Shown: positions 6,914 through 14,568 of the stretch, one piece after another
Layout of the letters: every line of letters starts with the position of its first letter
How positions within the stretch are numbered: position 1 is the stretch's first letter
NCBI RefSeq assembly: GCF_032116555.1
Contig: NZ_CP134949.1
Location: 434,001-498,000 of the forward strand
DNA from: Halobaculum sp. XH14
GTDB taxonomy: Archaea > Halobacteriota > Halobacteria > Halobacteriales > Haloferacaceae
Direction: 5' to 3'
Length of the DNA stretch: 64,000 nucleotides
Made by a program: the position numbers and the translations under genes
The notes under the pieces: model-generated
Seen by the model: the letters and a program-made list of their open reading frames with translations, nothing else
The model's database searches: none
What the model was told of the DNA's origin: nothing

Positions 6914-9205
6914 TCAGCCCGCGAACCGGCGGAGGACGGGCGCGTGTCGGCGCACGAGCGAGTCCGCCGCGTCGACCGCCTCGGCGGCCTCACCGTCGCT
7001 CACGCCCGAGCCGTAGCGGGCGCGCTCGTAGGCCTCGCCGACGGCACGCACGCGGTCGTCGAACCCGTGTGCGGCGAGCACGTCGAGGTAGGTCCGGGCC
7101 GTCTCGCCGGGGCGACGCTCCCGGTAGGCGAGCGCGCCGAGGTGTTCGAGCCGGCGGAACGCCCGGACCGCGTCGGCGTCGGGCTCCCGCCGCGGCTGGT
7201 AGACGAGCCAGAGGGCACGGTACGCCCGCCGGGAGAGCCCCGTCCGCCGGGCGCCCGCGACGAGTCCGACAAGCAGCACCGCGCCGACGACGGCGTCCTC
7301 GGGGGTGGGCGTCCAGCCGCCCTCGTCACTCTCGCCCCCGACGCCGGCGGCCGTGCCGTTGGCCGCGCCGGCCAGGCCGCCGCCGAAGGGCGTCTGGAAC
7401 GTCGCGTTCGCGCCCGGCCCCTGGAACTCGCCGGGGTCGGGCGTCTGTCCGGGGAAGCCCGCGCCGGCGGTGCCGGTGTCGTTCGGCGTCGGATCCGGCG
7501 TCTCGTAGCTGCCGTTGGCAGAGCCCGCCGCGTCGACGCTCTCGTCGCCCTCCGCGCGGGCGGCCTCGACGCGCTGCGTCTCGGCCGAGTCGCGGGGGCC
7601 GCCGGGCGTCGGATCGAACCGGATCCAGCCCTGCTCGGGGAAGTACACCTCGACCCAGGCGTGCGAGTCGAGGCCGCGGACGACCCACTCGTCCTCGGCG
7701 ACGCGCTGGCCCGGCGTGTAGCCGGTGACGAACCGGGCCGGGATGCCCTGGGTCCGGAGCATCACGACCATCGTCGTCGCGTAGTAGACGCAGTAGCCCG
7801 ACTCCATCTCGAACAGGAACCGGTCGGCCGTATCACCCGAGGGCGGCGGCACGTCGAGCGAGTACTCCCTGTTTGATTCGAGGTAGCGCTCGATCGCGAC
7901 GGCAGCGTCGTGGGGGTTGCTCGCGTCCGCCTCCTCGATGACCGACCGGGTGCGTTCGCCGACACGGTCGGGCGTGCTGCCGGGAAGCTGGGTGTACCTG
8001 GCGGCGACGTCCTCGGGGTAGTCGGTGCCGGCGCGCCGGAGCTGGCCCTCGGTCGCCTGGGGCACCTCGCTGTTGACGACGTAGGTGTCGTTCTCCAGCA
8101 GCGTCGTGCCCGGGCGGAGCCCGTCGTGTTCGGTCACCTGCGTCGTGTCCGACACGGGGCCCTCCACGGAGACGGGTTTCCACGCGGCCGGCATCGCGTC
8201 GAGCGATCCCCTCGCGGTCACCTCCTGTCGCATCGAAACCGTCTCGCCGGGCGGCTGGGAGAGCCGGCTGGTGCTGTACGGGCTGGCGTCGCCGGTCCGC
8301 ACCCAGCCCTGCCCGGTGTAGCGGTCGTAGGAGCCGACGCGCCAGTACGCCGAGCGATCCGACTCGACGACGAAGCGCACGTCCGGGGAGAGCTCGATGC
8401 TGCCGAGGACGGCCACGCGGTCGGTGTTGGCGACGAGGCTCGACTCGACGGTCGGGTTGCCGCCGCCCGGGAGGACGGGGTTGCTCGCGCTGCCGGGGAC
8501 GACCGTGACGACCGACGTGAGCACGACCATCGCGGCGACGATGACCGTCACCGTGTCGAGCTGTGCGAGGATGCCGCGCTTGCCCGCGGCGGCCAGCCCG
8601 GTGAACCCGAGCGCGACCGTGACGCCGACCGCGCAGGCGATCGCCGCCGCCGGCCCCGCGTCGCCCGTGAGGACGAAGAACGCGGTCGTGAGGCCGGCGA
8701 CGGTCGCGGCCCACACGTAGCGCCCGCGGGCCGTGAGATACCACGCGAGGAACGTCGGGACCGGCGCGAGCAGCAGCGCCCAGGTGCCGACGCTGAGCAG
8801 GCGGAGCACCGACAGGCCGGTGAGCAGCGCGAGCACGTCGGCGACGATCCGCGAGGCGGTGAACAGCGCCCGCGCGCTCTCGGGAACCGAGTAGAAGTAC
8901 GCCACCAGCGCCAGGGCGAACCCGGCCGCCGAGAGCGCGACCGCGGTCCGCTCGCGGAGGAACCCGGCGAACCAGGTGGCGAGCAGCGCCGTCGCAAGGA
9001 GTTCGAGCACCAGGAAGCCGACGCCGCCCACGACGTCGAGCACGTGGTAGAACACCGAGAGGTACGCGAGGACGGCGAGTGCGACGCCGAGCGCCGGCGC
9101 CCCCCTGAGCGCCCCGAGGGTGTCACGTCCGCCGCCGCCCCGCATGTACTCCGGCTTCGTCCCGTGTCCGGCCATGTCGCGCAGGCCGCCCGTGCCGCCG
9201 CTCAT
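6914..9205 (-). CDS. TgpA-like membrane transglutaminase (DUF3488 - transglutaminase - DUF4129)
   Basis: 763 aa. Residues about 30-235 are a cluster of transmembrane helices, followed by an extracytoplasmic region. The transglutaminase core has Cys472 in SGYCVYYATTM, His515 in DSHAWVEVYFP and Asp531 in RFDPTPGG, a complete catalytic triad. A low-complexity linker, one more membrane helix (about 640-665) and a C-terminal DUF4129-like domain follow. It belongs to the MoxR - DUF58 - transglutaminase gene set seen across haloarchaea and bacteria, thought to act on envelope proteins. A second Met (residue 11, base 9175) is an alternative start. The gene is separated from its DUF58 partner by about 450 bp that hold repeat copy B, so it may be expressed separately from the upstream genes. 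Confidence 0.9.
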   Translation of the reverse strand: MSGGTGGLRDMAGHGTKPEYMRGGGGRDTLGALRGAPALGVALAVLAYLSVFYHVLDVVGGVGFLVLELLATALLATWFAGFLRERTAVALSAAGFALALVAYFYSVPESARALFTASRIVADVLALLTGLSVLRLLSVGTWALLLAPVPTFLAWYLTARGRYVWAATVAGLTTAFFVLTGDAGPAAAIACAVGVTVALGFTGLAAAGKRGILAQLDTVTVIVAAMVVLTSVVTVVPGSASNPVLPGGGNPTVESSLVANTDRVAVLGSIELSPDVRFVVESDRSAYWRVGSYDRYTGQGWVRTGDASPYSTSRLSQPPGETVSMRQEVTARGSLDAMPAAWKPVSVEGPVSDTTQVTEHDGLRPGTTLLENDTYVVNSEVPQATEGQLRRAGTDYPEDVAARYTQLPGSTPDRVGERTRSVIEEADASNPHDAAVAIERYLESNREYSLDVPPPSGDTADRFLFEMESGYCVYYATTMVVMLRTQGIPARFVTGYTPGQRVAEDEWVVRGLDSHAWVEVYFPEQGWIRFDPTPGGPRDSAETQRVEAARAEGDESVDAAGSANGSYETPDPTPNDTGTAGAGFPGQTPDPGEFQGPGANATFQTPFGGGLAGAANGTAAGVGGESDEGGWTPTPEDAVVGAVLLVGLVAGARRTGLSRRAYRALWLVYQPRREPDADAVRAFRRLEHLGALAYRERRPGETARTYLDVLAAHGFDDRVRAVGEAYERARYGSGVSDGEAAEAVDAADSLVRRHAPVLRRFAG

Positions 9206-9659: not shown

Positions 9660-10724
9660 TCACGCCGCCACCTCCGACAAGCCGTCACGACCAGTCCCAC
9701 GCGTCACGCCGTACGTCGGCCGATACGAGCCCACGAACTCCTCGAAGTCGACCGACTCGTCGCCGACGGCGACCGACACGCCGTCGGACTCGCCGTAGAT
9801 CGTGACGTCGGCGTCCTCGGTCGTCACCCGGCCGGGGCCGACGAGCGCGAGGCGTTCGAGCAGGCGGACCTGGCTTCCGCGGTCCGGGCCGGCGGCGACG
9901 CTGCCGCCCGGCAGGTGGACCTCGACCGGGACGCCGTCCTCGACGAGCGCGAGCGCGATGCTGGCGACGGCCTCGGCCATCCGGTCTGCCGCGCCGGGCG
10001 AGCCCGACGCGCCGGCCGCCAGCGAGACGGCCTCCGTGTCCGCCTCGGCGGCGAACTCCTTCACGATGAGGTCCTCGCGCTTGGCGGTGGACTTCCAGTG
10101 GATGTCACGCAGCGAGTCGCCGTGGTCGTACTCGCGCAGGCGGTCGAACTCGCGGCGCTCCTCGTGGACGCCGGTCTCGTGGAGCGCGCGCAGGTCGCGC
10201 CGCGCCCAGCCGGCGATGGCGTGGACGCGCGGGTAGACGAGCACGTCGGCGGTGCCGGCGGTCGTCGCCTCCGTCTCGACGAGGCCGAGCAGGTCCCGGG
10301 CGGTGACGGTGGCCGGGCCGAGCGTGTGCTGGCCGCGCGTCTCGTATCGGAGCTCGTACTCGACGGGTGCGGTCCCGACGACCGTCTTGACGGTGGGCTC
10401 CTCGACGGCGAGGCCGTCGTCGACCTGCTCGCGCACCGTGCCGGCGAACGGACGCGAGAGGGCGGTGTCGGGACCCGGCCGCCGGCCGTCGGCGTCGCCG
10501 AAGAAGCAGCGGACGGTGCCCTCGTGGTCGACGTGGGCGTCCGGCGGGGTGTCCCGGGCGACCCGGGGCGGTTCGAACCGCCGGAGTTGCAGGTAGCCGG
10601 CAGCGAGCGCGACGACCCCGGGGATGACGACGGCGTTGAGCGCGCGGGGACCGAACAGCGCCGCCGAGAGGGCCGCGAGCGCGACGACCGCGACCACGAC
10701 CCAGCCGCGGCGGGTCAGGTGCAT
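9660..10724 (-). CDS. DUF58 domain protein of the MoxR-DUF58-transglutaminase operon
   Basis: 354 aa. Two N-terminal hydrophobic helices (MHLTRRGWVVVAVVALAAL and the following segment) are followed by an extracellular beta domain. The DUF58 signature is REYDHGDSLRDIHWKSTA with KREDLIVKEF just after. The VWA-like DUF58 region continues to the C-terminus. The start ATG at 10724 directly precedes the first helix. It lies 108 bp downstream of the MoxR gene on the same strand. The function is probably assembly or modification of envelope components together with the MoxR ATPase; the biochemical activity of DUF58 is not established. Confidence 0.88.
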   Translation of the reverse strand: MHLTRRGWVVVAVVALAALSAALFGPRALNAVVIPGVVALAAGYLQLRRFEPPRVARDTPPDAHVDHEGTVRCFFGDADGRRPGPDTALSRPFAGTVREQVDDGLAVEEPTVKTVVGTAPVEYELRYETRGQHTLGPATVTARDLLGLVETEATTAGTADVLVYPRVHAIAGWARRDLRALHETGVHEERREFDRLREYDHGDSLRDIHWKSTAKREDLIVKEFAAEADTEAVSLAAGASGSPGAADRMAEAVASIALALVEDGVPVEVHLPGGSVAAGPDRGSQVRLLERLALVGPGRVTTEDADVTIYGESDGVSVAVGDESVDFEEFVGSYRPTYGVTRGTGRDGLSEVAA

Positions 10725-10832: not shown

Positions 10833-11792
10833 TCACTCCACCGCGACGGCGTCCAGCGCGTCCCGGACCACGTCGGCGCCCGTCTCGCTTCCGGTCCGCG
10901 GGCGGATGCGGTGGGCGAACACGGAGGCGACCTCCGTCTGGACGTCGTCGGGGACGACGTAGTCACGGCCGTCGACGACCGCGCGGGCCTGGGCGGCGCG
11001 GACGAGGGCGATGCTGCCGCGGGGGCTGACGCCGAGCTGGGCGTTCTCGCGGGTGTAGTTCGCGAGCCCGGTGACGTACGCGCGGACGGGTTCGCTCACC
11101 TCGACCTCGCCGACCGTGTGGCGGGCGCTACGGAGTTCCTCCAGCGTCGCGACCGGATCGAGCGACCGGATGGGGTGTTCGCCGGCGGTCCTGGCGAGCA
11201 GCTCCGTCTCGTCGCCCTCGGTCGGGTAGCCGAGCCGCAGCTTCTTCATGAAGCGGTCGATCTCGGCGATCGGCAGTTCGTACGTCCGTCCCGGTTCGAC
11301 GTCGTTCTGGGTGGCGATGACCGTGAAGGGGTCGGGCAGCTCCCGGGTGACGCCGTCGACGGTCACCTGTCGCTCCTCCATCGCCTCCAGCAGCGCCGAC
11401 TGGGTCTTGGGCGGCGCGCGGTTGATCTCGTCGCCCAGCACGACGTTGGCGAACACCGGGCCGGGCTTGAACTCGAACTCGCTCGTCTTCTGGTTGAACA
11501 CGTTCACCCCGGTCACGTCCGACGGGAGGAGGTCGGGGGTGAACTGCACGCGCCGGAACTCACAGTCCACCGAGCGTGCGAGCGCCCGGGCGAGCATCGT
11601 CTTCCCGACGCCCGGGACGTCCTCCAGCAGGAGGTGGCCGCGGGCGAGCAGGCCGACGAGGATGTGCTCGACGGCGGCGTCGTTGCCGACGATGACGCGC
11701 TGGACGTTGTCGGTCACCCGGTCCACGAACGCGGCGGCCTCGTCTGCGGGGAGCGACCTCGGCTCCTCGAGGTCGGCGTCGACGTCGCTCAT
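10833..11792 (-). CDS. MoxR-family AAA+ ATPase
   Basis: 319 aa. Walker A is DVPGVGKT (about residues 58-65), Walker B/sensor regions are NVVLGDEINRAPPKTQSAL and FTVIATQND, and a C-terminal lid domain has SPRGSIALVRAAQA. This is the typical MoxR chaperone-like ATPase that heads DUF58/transglutaminase operons. It starts at ATG 11792 and is first in the minus-strand operon 11792 to 6914. Confidence 0.93.
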   Translation of the reverse strand: MSDVDADLEEPRSLPADEAAAFVDRVTDNVQRVIVGNDAAVEHILVGLLARGHLLLEDVPGVGKTMLARALARSVDCEFRRVQFTPDLLPSDVTGVNVFNQKTSEFEFKPGPVFANVVLGDEINRAPPKTQSALLEAMEERQVTVDGVTRELPDPFTVIATQNDVEPGRTYELPIAEIDRFMKKLRLGYPTEGDETELLARTAGEHPIRSLDPVATLEELRSARHTVGEVEVSEPVRAYVTGLANYTRENAQLGVSPRGSIALVRAAQARAVVDGRDYVVPDDVQTEVASVFAHRIRPRTGSETGADVVRDALDAVAVE

Positions 11793-12140: not shown

Positions 12141-12375
12141 CGATTCGATCACTCCACTCCCTCCGGTCGCTCCCCTCACTCATCCCTCGCGCGCCGGTGG
12201 CGGACACGGAGGCCCGCCAGCCGCGCGCCAACCGCACCCGCACGGCGTCCGACACCGTCAGCCCCGGAGCGGACGCGCGACGGACGGCCGTCAGACAGTT
12301 CGCAGTCGTGCGATTCTCGGGAGACACCTTTAGGTGCCTCCGGCGGGGAGACCCACTCGATTCACCGGGTGTGTC

Positions 12376-14568
12376 ATGTCACAGGGAGCATACGGTCAGG
12401 GCTTCGTTGAACGGGTCGTCGAGGCGTGCGACCGGGTCGAGGCGGGGCTCGGGCCGGACGCCGCGGCCGAGTCGGTCGCCGCCGCGCTGTGCGAACACCT
12501 GTTCGCCGGGGTGCTGGGCTACGACGAGTCGCGCTACACGCGAAACCGCGCGGTCGCCCGGTTCCGGGACGACGCCGGCCACGTCGCGGCGACGCTCGCG
12601 GCCGTCGGACGGGGCGGCAGCGTCGACGCCGCGGCCGACGCCGCGTTCGCGGCGGCGGGCGGCGAGCCGTACGTGCAGTACGTCGTCGCCGCCAGCACCG
12701 ACAGGCTCCTCGCCTACGAGCGCGTGTCGGAGGAGGACGCGGCGGACGACGCGGCCACCGAGACCCACCACGGCGTCACCGCAACGGTCCACACCGACGT
12801 CCCGCTCGACGAAGCCATCGCCGCCGGCCGCCGCGGCCGGCTCTCCCAGACGCTCCGCCCGGGCCAGCAGCTCGCGGTCGCCAAGCTGACCGCGCTCCGC
12901 CCCGACGAGCTCTCGGCCGCGGAACGCTACGAGGAGTTCGACGCGCCCGAGCGGCACTCGGTCGCCGAGGACGACGGGCTGGGCACGCTCGTCGGCACGC
13001 TCCGCGACTGCGTGACCGACGTGCTGCTCCCGGCCGTCGAGGAGGCGTTCACTGACGTCCGCGAGCGCACCGACGCCTACGAGGACCGCGAGGGGGCGCT
13101 CGAATCGGCCGTCGACTCGGCGCTGCGCGGCCCGGGCGACGACACCGCCGCGGCGCCCGCCCGCCTCCGCCTGCTCGACCACCGGCGCGGGGCCGACGGC
13201 CGGGCCGTCAGCGACCTCCGGGCCGTCTACGGCACCTGGGTCCGCGGCGCGGGCCGCACCGGCTTCACGCCCTCCGAGAACGAGCGCGCGTTCGTCCGCG
13301 TCGCCGCGTTCTCGCTGCTCGAGGAGGCGTTCCTCGTCCGCGTCGCCGAGGGGATGAGCCTCCGGGAGGAGACGCTGAGCGGCGACGCGGTCGAGCGGTT
13401 CGAGGCGTTCGCCGAGGAGTTCGGCGTCGAGCGCGACGCCGGCGACCTGCTTCTGGTCGCCCGCGAGTCGTTCTCGGAGCTGTACGACCGGCAGGCCCCG
13501 CCGCTTTGTGACTGGGCGCTCGACCACGAGGCCGTCGTGGAGGCGCTCTCGCGGGTCGTCTGGTACCTCGATCACTTCGCGTTCGACGTCGACGGCGGCC
13601 GCGCGGCTGCGGCGTACGACCGCCTGCTGAGCGTGCTCGACCTGCCCGAGATCGAGGCCGACGCGACCGACCCGCTCCCCGACGTGGCGCTCGACCGGAC
13701 GGCGTTCCCTGCCGAGCCGGGCGCGCTGCTCGACCCGGCGGTCGGTGACGGGCGCTACCTCGTCGCGGCCGCGGCGCGACTGCGGGCGAGCGAGAGCGAG
13801 GAGTCGGACCCGCGAGAGCGACTGCGGACGGTTCGCGAGCGGCTCGTCGGCGCGACGGCGGACCCGCTCGCCTGTCGCGTGACCGAGACGCGCCTGCTGC
13901 TCCGCCTGCTGGACGACTACCGGGAGGCGCGCTGGGAGGAGGCCGGGTTCACGCTCGAGCCGCTACGGCTCCACCTGACGGACCCGCTCGTGCGCCCCGA
14001 CGCGCAGACGACGCTGGGCGCGCCGGGCGAGGCGCGCGCGGCGGACCCGCTGGACAGCGAGGCGTTCGCGTACGTCGTGGGCGCGTTCCCCGCGCGGCTC
14101 CGGCGCGACGTGGCGGAGGGCCCCGCGGCGGAGGCGTACGCGGAGTACGACACCGCCTACTACACCTACGACACGTCGGCGCTGTACGTCGACCGGGCGG
14201 CCGACTGGCTCGCCGAGAACGGCACGCTCTCGGCGGTCGTCTCCGGGCGGTTCCGGGACACCAGATTCGGCGAGAAGCTGCGCGAGCGCCTCCCCCAGTG
14301 GTATCGCCTGGAGGAGGTACGCGAGGTGCCGGGCACGGCCGCGGGCCGGACGCCCGTCCTGCTCACGGCCCGGCGCTTCCGGAAGAACGAGCCGCTCGTC
14401 TCGGCCGCGGAGTACGAGCCGCCGACGTACTCCTTCGAGTACGCGGAGGGGCTCGACGCGGATTCGGTCGACGTGCCGGCGTCGCTTCTGGGCTCGGACG
14501 AGTGGGCGCTCGACGCCGCGCCGACGGTCGACGTGGACGCCGAGGCGGAGGGTAACACCGCGGATTAA
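12376..14568 (+). CDS. Large protein related to N6-adenine DNA methyltransferases (Eco57I/PglX type), catalytic motif decayed
   Basis: 730 aa from ATG 12376; an upstream in-frame ATG at 12334 is less likely because it precedes the TATA-like region. I infer a methyltransferase core from DPAVGDGRYLVAAAARL (residue 453 on), which resembles the SAM-binding motif I (DPAxGxGxF). The C-terminal block ADWLAENGTLSAVVSGRF followed by KLRERLPQWY resembles the strand after motif IV in Eco57I/PglX enzymes. Where NPPY should stand there is YVVGAFPARL (566 on), so base-flipping catalysis looks lost. The N-terminal 430 residues are helical and unrecognised. No specificity subunit, nuclease or BREX gene lies nearby. 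It may be a non-catalytic SAM or DNA binder; the function is unknown. Confidence 0.6.
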   Translation: MSQGAYGQGFVERVVEACDRVEAGLGPDAAAESVAAALCEHLFAGVLGYDESRYTRNRAVARFRDDAGHVAATLAAVGRGGSVDAAADAAFAAAGGEPYVQYVVAASTDRLLAYERVSEEDAADDAATETHHGVTATVHTDVPLDEAIAAGRRGRLSQTLRPGQQLAVAKLTALRPDELSAAERYEEFDAPERHSVAEDDGLGTLVGTLRDCVTDVLLPAVEEAFTDVRERTDAYEDREGALESAVDSALRGPGDDTAAAPARLRLLDHRRGADGRAVSDLRAVYGTWVRGAGRTGFTPSENERAFVRVAAFSLLEEAFLVRVAEGMSLREETLSGDAVERFEAFAEEFGVERDAGDLLLVARESFSELYDRQAPPLCDWALDHEAVVEALSRVVWYLDHFAFDVDGGRAAAAYDRLLSVLDLPEIEADATDPLPDVALDRTAFPAEPGALLDPAVGDGRYLVAAAARLRASESEESDPRERLRTVRERLVGATADPLACRVTETRLLLRLLDDYREARWEEAGFTLEPLRLHLTDPLVRPDAQTTLGAPGEARAADPLDSEAFAYVVGAFPARLRRDVAEGPAAEAYAEYDTAYYTYDTSALYVDRAADWLAENGTLSAVVSGRFRDTRFGEKLRERLPQWYRLEEVREVPGTAAGRTPVLLTARRFRKNEPLVSAAEYEPPTYSFEYAEGLDADSVDVPASLLGSDEWALDAAPTVDVDAEAEGNTAD

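Follow-up and report, generated by a model that had tools for sequence, protein, structure and literature searches.

Does a methyltransferase-like gene that has lost its catalytic motif mark a restriction-modification enzyme in decay, or has its product been kept for another task? The question is raised by a gene in the haloarchaeal DNA analyzed here, a stretch of 64,000 nucleotides (the window), which encodes a protein that we call pseudo-IIG. The reading of a single open frame of 730 aa, proposed in the preliminary description, is borne out from ATG to TAA (Table 1). Frame length alone is weak evidence of a gene here, because the GC content is 75% and an antisense frame of 398 aa is also present. 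The existence of orthologues and the codon-position bias (61, 49, and 201 differences at positions 1, 2, and 3 between the copies of the window genome, G000, and of G001) identify it as a real gene. A TTAGGT/TTACGT element like that of the window was seen by eye upstream of the gene in the two other members of the genus and in the Halobaculum copies.

Table 1. Features of the pseudo-IIG locus (window coordinates)
Feature	Position	Strand	Remarks
Pseudo-IIG gene	12376..14568	+	730 aa; ATG 12376, TAA 14566-14568; no internal stops
TATA-like core promoter, putative, CCTTTAGGTGCC	12327..12338	+	49 nt 5' of ATG; read by eye
MoxR AAA+ ATPase, divergent neighbor	10833..11792	-	
DUF58 protein	9660..10724	-	
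TgpA-like transglutaminase	6914..9205	-	
N-terminal PD-(D/E)xK-fold domain, dead by motifs	12376..12918 (residues 1-181)	+	Model pLDDT 93.7, and VIA
Nuclease E-x-K position, A-A-V here	12598..12606 (residues 75-77)	+	E[G/A]K in 13/13 IIG, 0/14 pseudo-IIG
Basic segment 1, new, conserved	12829..12900 (residues 152-175)	+	12/25 of residues 151-175 invariant in group A
Basic segment 2, new, conserved, including WVRGAGRTGFTPSEN	13141..13281 (residues 256-302)	+	15/25 of residues 276-300 invariant in group A
Cofactor motif X (GEFYTP in IIG), lost	13660..13671, rough (gap-rich region)	+	13/13 IIG, 0/14 pseudo-IIG
Motif I, DPAVGDGRYL	13732..13761	+	IIG form DPA[C/T]GSG
Motif II, GATADP, acid replaced by T	13849..13866	+	Alignment
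Motif IV, NPPY replaced by AFPA	14083..14094 (residues 570-573)	+	NPPY in 13/13 IIG, 0/14 pseudo-IIG
Basic segment 3, new, conserved, including GRFRDTRFGEKLRERLPQW	14236..14415 (residues 621-680)	+	Charge, alignment

Sequence profiles place the protein among methyltransferases in general terms. The Eco57I family of Pfam gave a below-cut-off match (20.8 versus 25.3 bits; E, 4.6e-4) and is recognized at an E of ≤0.1 in 11 of 12 pseudo-IIG members, so that the Eco57I half of a previously suggested PglX/Eco57I-like block holds at that level; the PglX half amounts to a weak general resemblance, PADLOC and NCBIfam returning weak methyltransferase or PglX likeness only. Among PDB sequences, phmmer found no match to the 730-aa protein, and a profile found weak N6 methyltransferase matches only. 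In contrast, residues 11 to 714 of an AlphaFold2 model of the full protein (12-row alignment; mean pLDDT, 78.2; pTM, 0.65) match the Type IIG enzyme DrdV (Foldseek E, 7e-9). The whole-body VIA match to DrdV has a root mean square deviation (rmsd) of 15.6 despite a Z of 16.8, and thus the domains of the two proteins are arranged differently. The C-terminal Rossmann part superimposes on CamA (VIA Z, 19.4; rmsd, 3.2; 245 residues), and the methyltransferase fold expected from the first reading of the sequence is thereby supported at the level of structure prediction.

That reading had also denied the protein a nuclease. However, the N-terminal model (181 residues, folded from 27 rows) aligns with the nuclease of DrdV, 7lo5 (VIA-align Z, 9.1; rmsd, 3.1; 127 residues), and with HsdR (Z, 7.2), which reveals a restriction endonuclease (REase) fold that is catalytically dead by its motifs. 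Foldseek found no match to this model at an E of ≤0.001 (the best, at 0.064, being unrelated DHH-type proteins), and the assignment stands on VIA-align, the motif alignment, and the HSDR_N_2 match of the equivalent domain of an IIG relative (E, 2.7e-6). In this relative (L038), TaqI_C (the specificity domain), N6_Mtase, and Eco57I all score above cut-off, as does HSDR_N_2 when the first 180 residues are scanned alone. The pseudo-IIG family ends short of the TaqI_C stretch of its IIG relatives and has no target recognition domain. The protein is a degenerate Type IIG enzyme: the PD-(D/E)xK nuclease fold comes first, followed by a helical linker and then the N6-adenine methyltransferase fold, and the C-terminal specificity domain has been lost.

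To follow the motifs, we aligned 14 pseudo-IIG members (10 of group A and 4 of group B) with 13 IIG relatives having frames of 716 to 1,255 aa, 11 of them longer than 1,160 aa; G150, which is nearly identical to G077 (dN, 0.023), and the frameshifted copies of G148 and G163 were left out. Motif names (X, I, II, IV, and so on) follow common usage. The replacement of the catalytic NPPY, noticed at the outset, is confirmed: AFPA, within the stretch VVGAFPARLRR (residues 567 to 577), stands where the relatives have NPPY, and all 14 pseudo-IIG members lack the latter. The loss goes further than the first reading had noticed, in that nuclease E-x-K and motif X are missing from the same 14 members. 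Relatives with an intact NPPY do exist, but only as distant full-length IIG enzymes with about 22 to 32% identity. A private mutation or an assembly error is ruled out, because relatives share the motif loss. The claim that the SAM-binding motif is kept was right in part. Motif I persists in altered form (residues 453 to 462), as DPA[V/C]GDG in 14/14 pseudo-IIG members against DPA[C/T]GSG in 13/13 IIG enzymes, and the motif III D is mostly kept; motif X, however, is lost, and so is the motif II acid in 9 of 10 members of group A (it is kept in 4 of 4 members of group B). Judging from these replacements, the active sites look lost, and methyltransferase activity is predicted to be absent.

A profile search of 170 host-family genomes matched 43 at an E of ≤1e-20, and these were sorted by score and frame length. 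Pseudo-IIG genes were thereby recognized in 17 of the 170 genomes and in four genera: the genus of the window (g1, 3/3), Halobaculum (g5, 8/11), g10 (1/4), and g3 (5/7). Fifteen of the 17 copies are open, and the two frameshifted ones, in G148 and G163, belong to assemblies that are 85% and 79% complete, respectively. The copy of G036 is an open frame of 814 aa, the reported TGA falling beyond the frame end as read. In an even sample of the whole order (392 genomes), 18 genomes matched at an E of ≤1e-60, and those outside the host family all have frames longer than 1,160 aa.

The MoxR gene adjoins pseudo-IIG divergently in each of the 17 genomes that carry the latter (12 including the window, and 5 checked separately), whereas the downstream neighbor is of four kinds across the genomes compared. 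In the window it is, by our reading of its sequence, presumably a phosphoribosyltransferase-like gene. Elsewhere we take it to be a threonine synthase gene (G001 and the four g3 genomes compared) or mutS-mutL on the same strand (four Halobaculum genomes, L033 to L036); in G002, what we take to be mutS-mutL lies nearby on the opposite strand, and G036 presumably has other downstream genes. None of the neighbors of pseudo-IIG occurs at the five IIG loci compared, and each of four IIG genes whose contig was compared with that of MoxR (one in G191, two in G225, and one in G175) lies on a different contig. In G147, an N-terminal stub of about 58 aa (L078:123-290) remains between MoxR and mutS, directly before mutS, and is a direct trace of pseudo-IIG loss.

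In the main tree, which contains pseudo-IIG groups A and B, IIG enzymes, and 12 outgroup methyltransferases, groups A and B are united in a single clade (100/99) that lies within the IIG enzymes, with IIG_G191 and IIG_G054 as nearest relatives (88/80); long branches and odd composition call for caution in reading these trees. When either group A or group B is removed, the remaining group still joins the same pair (86/74 and 89/80). In a tree of MoxR plus DUF58 (34 genomes), g10, g19, g1, and g5 fall into a single clade (100/99), close to which g3 branches at an open fork, and the presence of pseudo-IIG on this tree needs 8 changes. This pattern fits one gain, inheritance in place, and repeated loss, with which the host tree is compatible without proving it. 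Two separate domestications are disfavored by the common site, by the joining of each group to the same IIG pair, and by 32 shared derived states, although many of these are alanine and may follow composition.

The open frame had been described as maintained rather than decaying, and substitution rates (dN/dS by the method of Nei and Gojobori) agree with this view. The ratio is 0.22 to 0.25 for three pairs of g1 and 0.28 to 0.46 for 21 Halobaculum pairs. In g1 the gene falls between MoxR (0.16 to 0.18) and DUF58 (0.28 to 0.33), with the transglutaminase at 0.35 to 0.41; selection is thus purifying and similar to that on the neighbors, which disfavors simple decay. Residues 601 to 650 are strongly constrained in both g1 and Halobaculum (0.10 and 0.14), while the most constrained block is 151 to 200 in g1 (0.07) and 251 to 300 in Halobaculum (0.12). 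In five pairs for which indels were counted, all of them span whole codons, a regularity that alignment from translated open frames largely guarantees.

Beyond what was lost, group A has fixed residues of its own. Of 175 positions invariant in IIG enzymes, 35 are kept in all of group A; conversely, 97 positions are invariant in 10/10 group A members and present in at most 3 of 13 IIG enzymes. Arginine or lysine occupies 21 of these 97 positions, against 10% of the protein (Fisher P = 5e-4), and aspartate or glutamate 9, against 19% (P = 0.008). Three segments have become basic, with net charges in group A and IIG enzymes, respectively, of +5.1 and -1.3 (residues 151 to 175), +3.6 and -8.5 (residues 256 to 300), and +3.9 and -1.9 (residues 621 to 680). 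In a protein as acidic as this one (pI 4.5), such segments suggest a possible new polyanion-binding face. The basic residues, which are rare in haloarchaeal proteins, may perhaps be conserved for other reasons, for which the 15 arginine or lysine residues among the 175 IIG-invariant positions provide a partial control. The segments are confined to group A, and a shared ancestral role therefore cannot rest on them. The group B copies (L043 to L046), which lack them and keep the motif II acid, also retain more of motif IV (DAPT, DPPN); group B perhaps has a role different from that of group A.

Taken together, these data favor the following history. A single-chain Type IIG enzyme would have become established next to the MoxR cluster in an ancestor of some host-family lineages; its nuclease, methyltransferase, and specificity parts would then have been lost and the protein retained as a non-enzymatic one. 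The REase-helical-MTase body would have been kept, and in group A conserved arginine-rich segments would have evolved on it. The most likely task of this body would be to attach to nucleic acid, or to some other polyanion, which it would neither cut nor methylate, and so to act as an accessory DNA-binding protein or a scaffold. Derivation from a Type IIG enzyme followed by domestication is, on sequence grounds, highly probable, and a new, non-enzymatic job is very likely for a protein that stays intact and under selection although its active sites look lost. To the whole statement, a domesticated, non-catalytic former IIG enzyme that most likely serves as a nucleic-acid- or polyanion-binding accessory or scaffold protein, we assign a probability of about 0.4. 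Against the binding function stand the missing specificity domain, which is the DNA-reading part, and the loss of the gene in several relatives, which makes pseudo-IIG dispensable. A still more specific version, in which a non-catalytic chromosomal nucleic-acid binder with a new arginine-rich face is functionally tied to the MoxR-DUF58-transglutaminase system that shares its upstream region, we consider unlikely.

The constant MoxR neighbor beside a changing downstream gene could instead mean that the protein is a partner or regulator of the MoxR-DUF58-transglutaminase system, acting through protein contacts as scaffold, substrate, or shared-promoter regulator. MoxR is, however, found at an E of ≤1e-100 in 148 of the 170 host-family genomes, against 17 for pseudo-IIG, so the cluster persists without the gene, and the adjacency may equal plain inheritance in place; we regard such a partnership as rather doubtful. 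Should the protein be a relic in slow decay, retained by chance, one would understand its absence from 3 of 11 Halobaculum, 3 of 4 g10, and 2 of 7 g3 genomes, the stub in G147, the frameshifts in two low-completeness assemblies, and the weaker constraint in Halobaculum. Yet dN/dS lies well below 1 and close to that of working neighbors, the frame is open in nearly all copies across four genera, and sites have become newly conserved, all of which renders chance retention improbable.

Two further readings concern what the old fold might still bind. The persistence of motif I in all 14 members, the mostly kept motif III D, and the predicted Rossmann methyltransferase fold are consistent with retained binding of SAM, or of a nucleotide like it, or with methylation of another substrate via a changed pocket; the loss of motif X and NPPY throughout and of the motif II acid in most of group A makes this improbable. 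The roles named in the first reading (DNA sensor, structural chromatin protein, and decoy) would be no more than candidates. A decoy or sensor in virus-host conflict, for instance a sponge for DNA-mimic anti-restriction proteins, would make use of the retained restriction-modification body, and the structural matches include folds bound to the DNA mimic Ocr (7eew and 8q56). This reading is very improbable given the single chromosomal site beside housekeeping genes; furthermore, the five window neighbors scanned gave no convincing match to a defense family (MoxR matched TRIP13 marginally, E, 9.6e-4) and none to BREX. A domesticated, non-catalytic Type IIG derivative with a binding or scaffold role remains our preferred reading.

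Compared with known systems, pseudo-IIG shares domain order, about 22 to 32% identity, and common ancestry with Type IIG enzymes, of which the haloarchaeal ones mostly have 1,160 to 1,255 aa and DrdV has been solved; E-x-K, motif X, NPPY, and TaqI_C are theirs and are all absent from pseudo-IIG. PglX/BrxX of BREX belongs to the same methyltransferase superfamily (VIA Z, 17.1; rmsd, 5.8; 436 residues, to 8c45), but pseudo-IIG is without NPPY and scores 15.5 bits with NF033451, whose equivalog cut-off is 400. The orphan DNA methyltransferases of Halobacteria are likewise chromosomal, conserved, and without a separate nuclease partner, but pseudo-IIG has lost the catalytic motif. Such orphans are treated in PMC6471742, in the searched text of which the terms Halobaculum, inactive, pseudogene, NPPY, and MoxR are absent. 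According to PMC5867850, two silent methyltransferase genes of Haloferax volcanii, HVO_A0079 and HVO_A0237, showed no methylation, for a reason left unexplained there, and have no apparent disruptive mutations; both are flanked by transposases, and the alignment of HVO_A0079 keeps NPPY, unlike pseudo-IIG. A full-text literature search, which did not cover most subscription journals, found no description of a family like pseudo-IIG.

Dead restriction-modification genes are usually read as decay, yet this family has one origin and stays under selection. It offers a clean natural case of the domestication of a selfish or defense enzyme, in which every recognized catalytic motif was lost, residues were newly fixed, and intact relatives can be compared. 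A further lesson is that a haloarchaeal gene annotated as "Eco57I methylase" may in fact encode a pseudoenzyme. Two related loci deserve mention. In G175 (L124:2208-4355), an IIG relative of 716 aa keeps NPPY and E-x-K intact, and its frame stops with no specificity domain. The second contig of the window genome carries Eco57I-type genes (G000:C2:141721-145307; L145 to L148), namely, a 1,214-aa frame and adjacent matches split over frames of 625 and 182 aa, the latter being maybe a broken copy.
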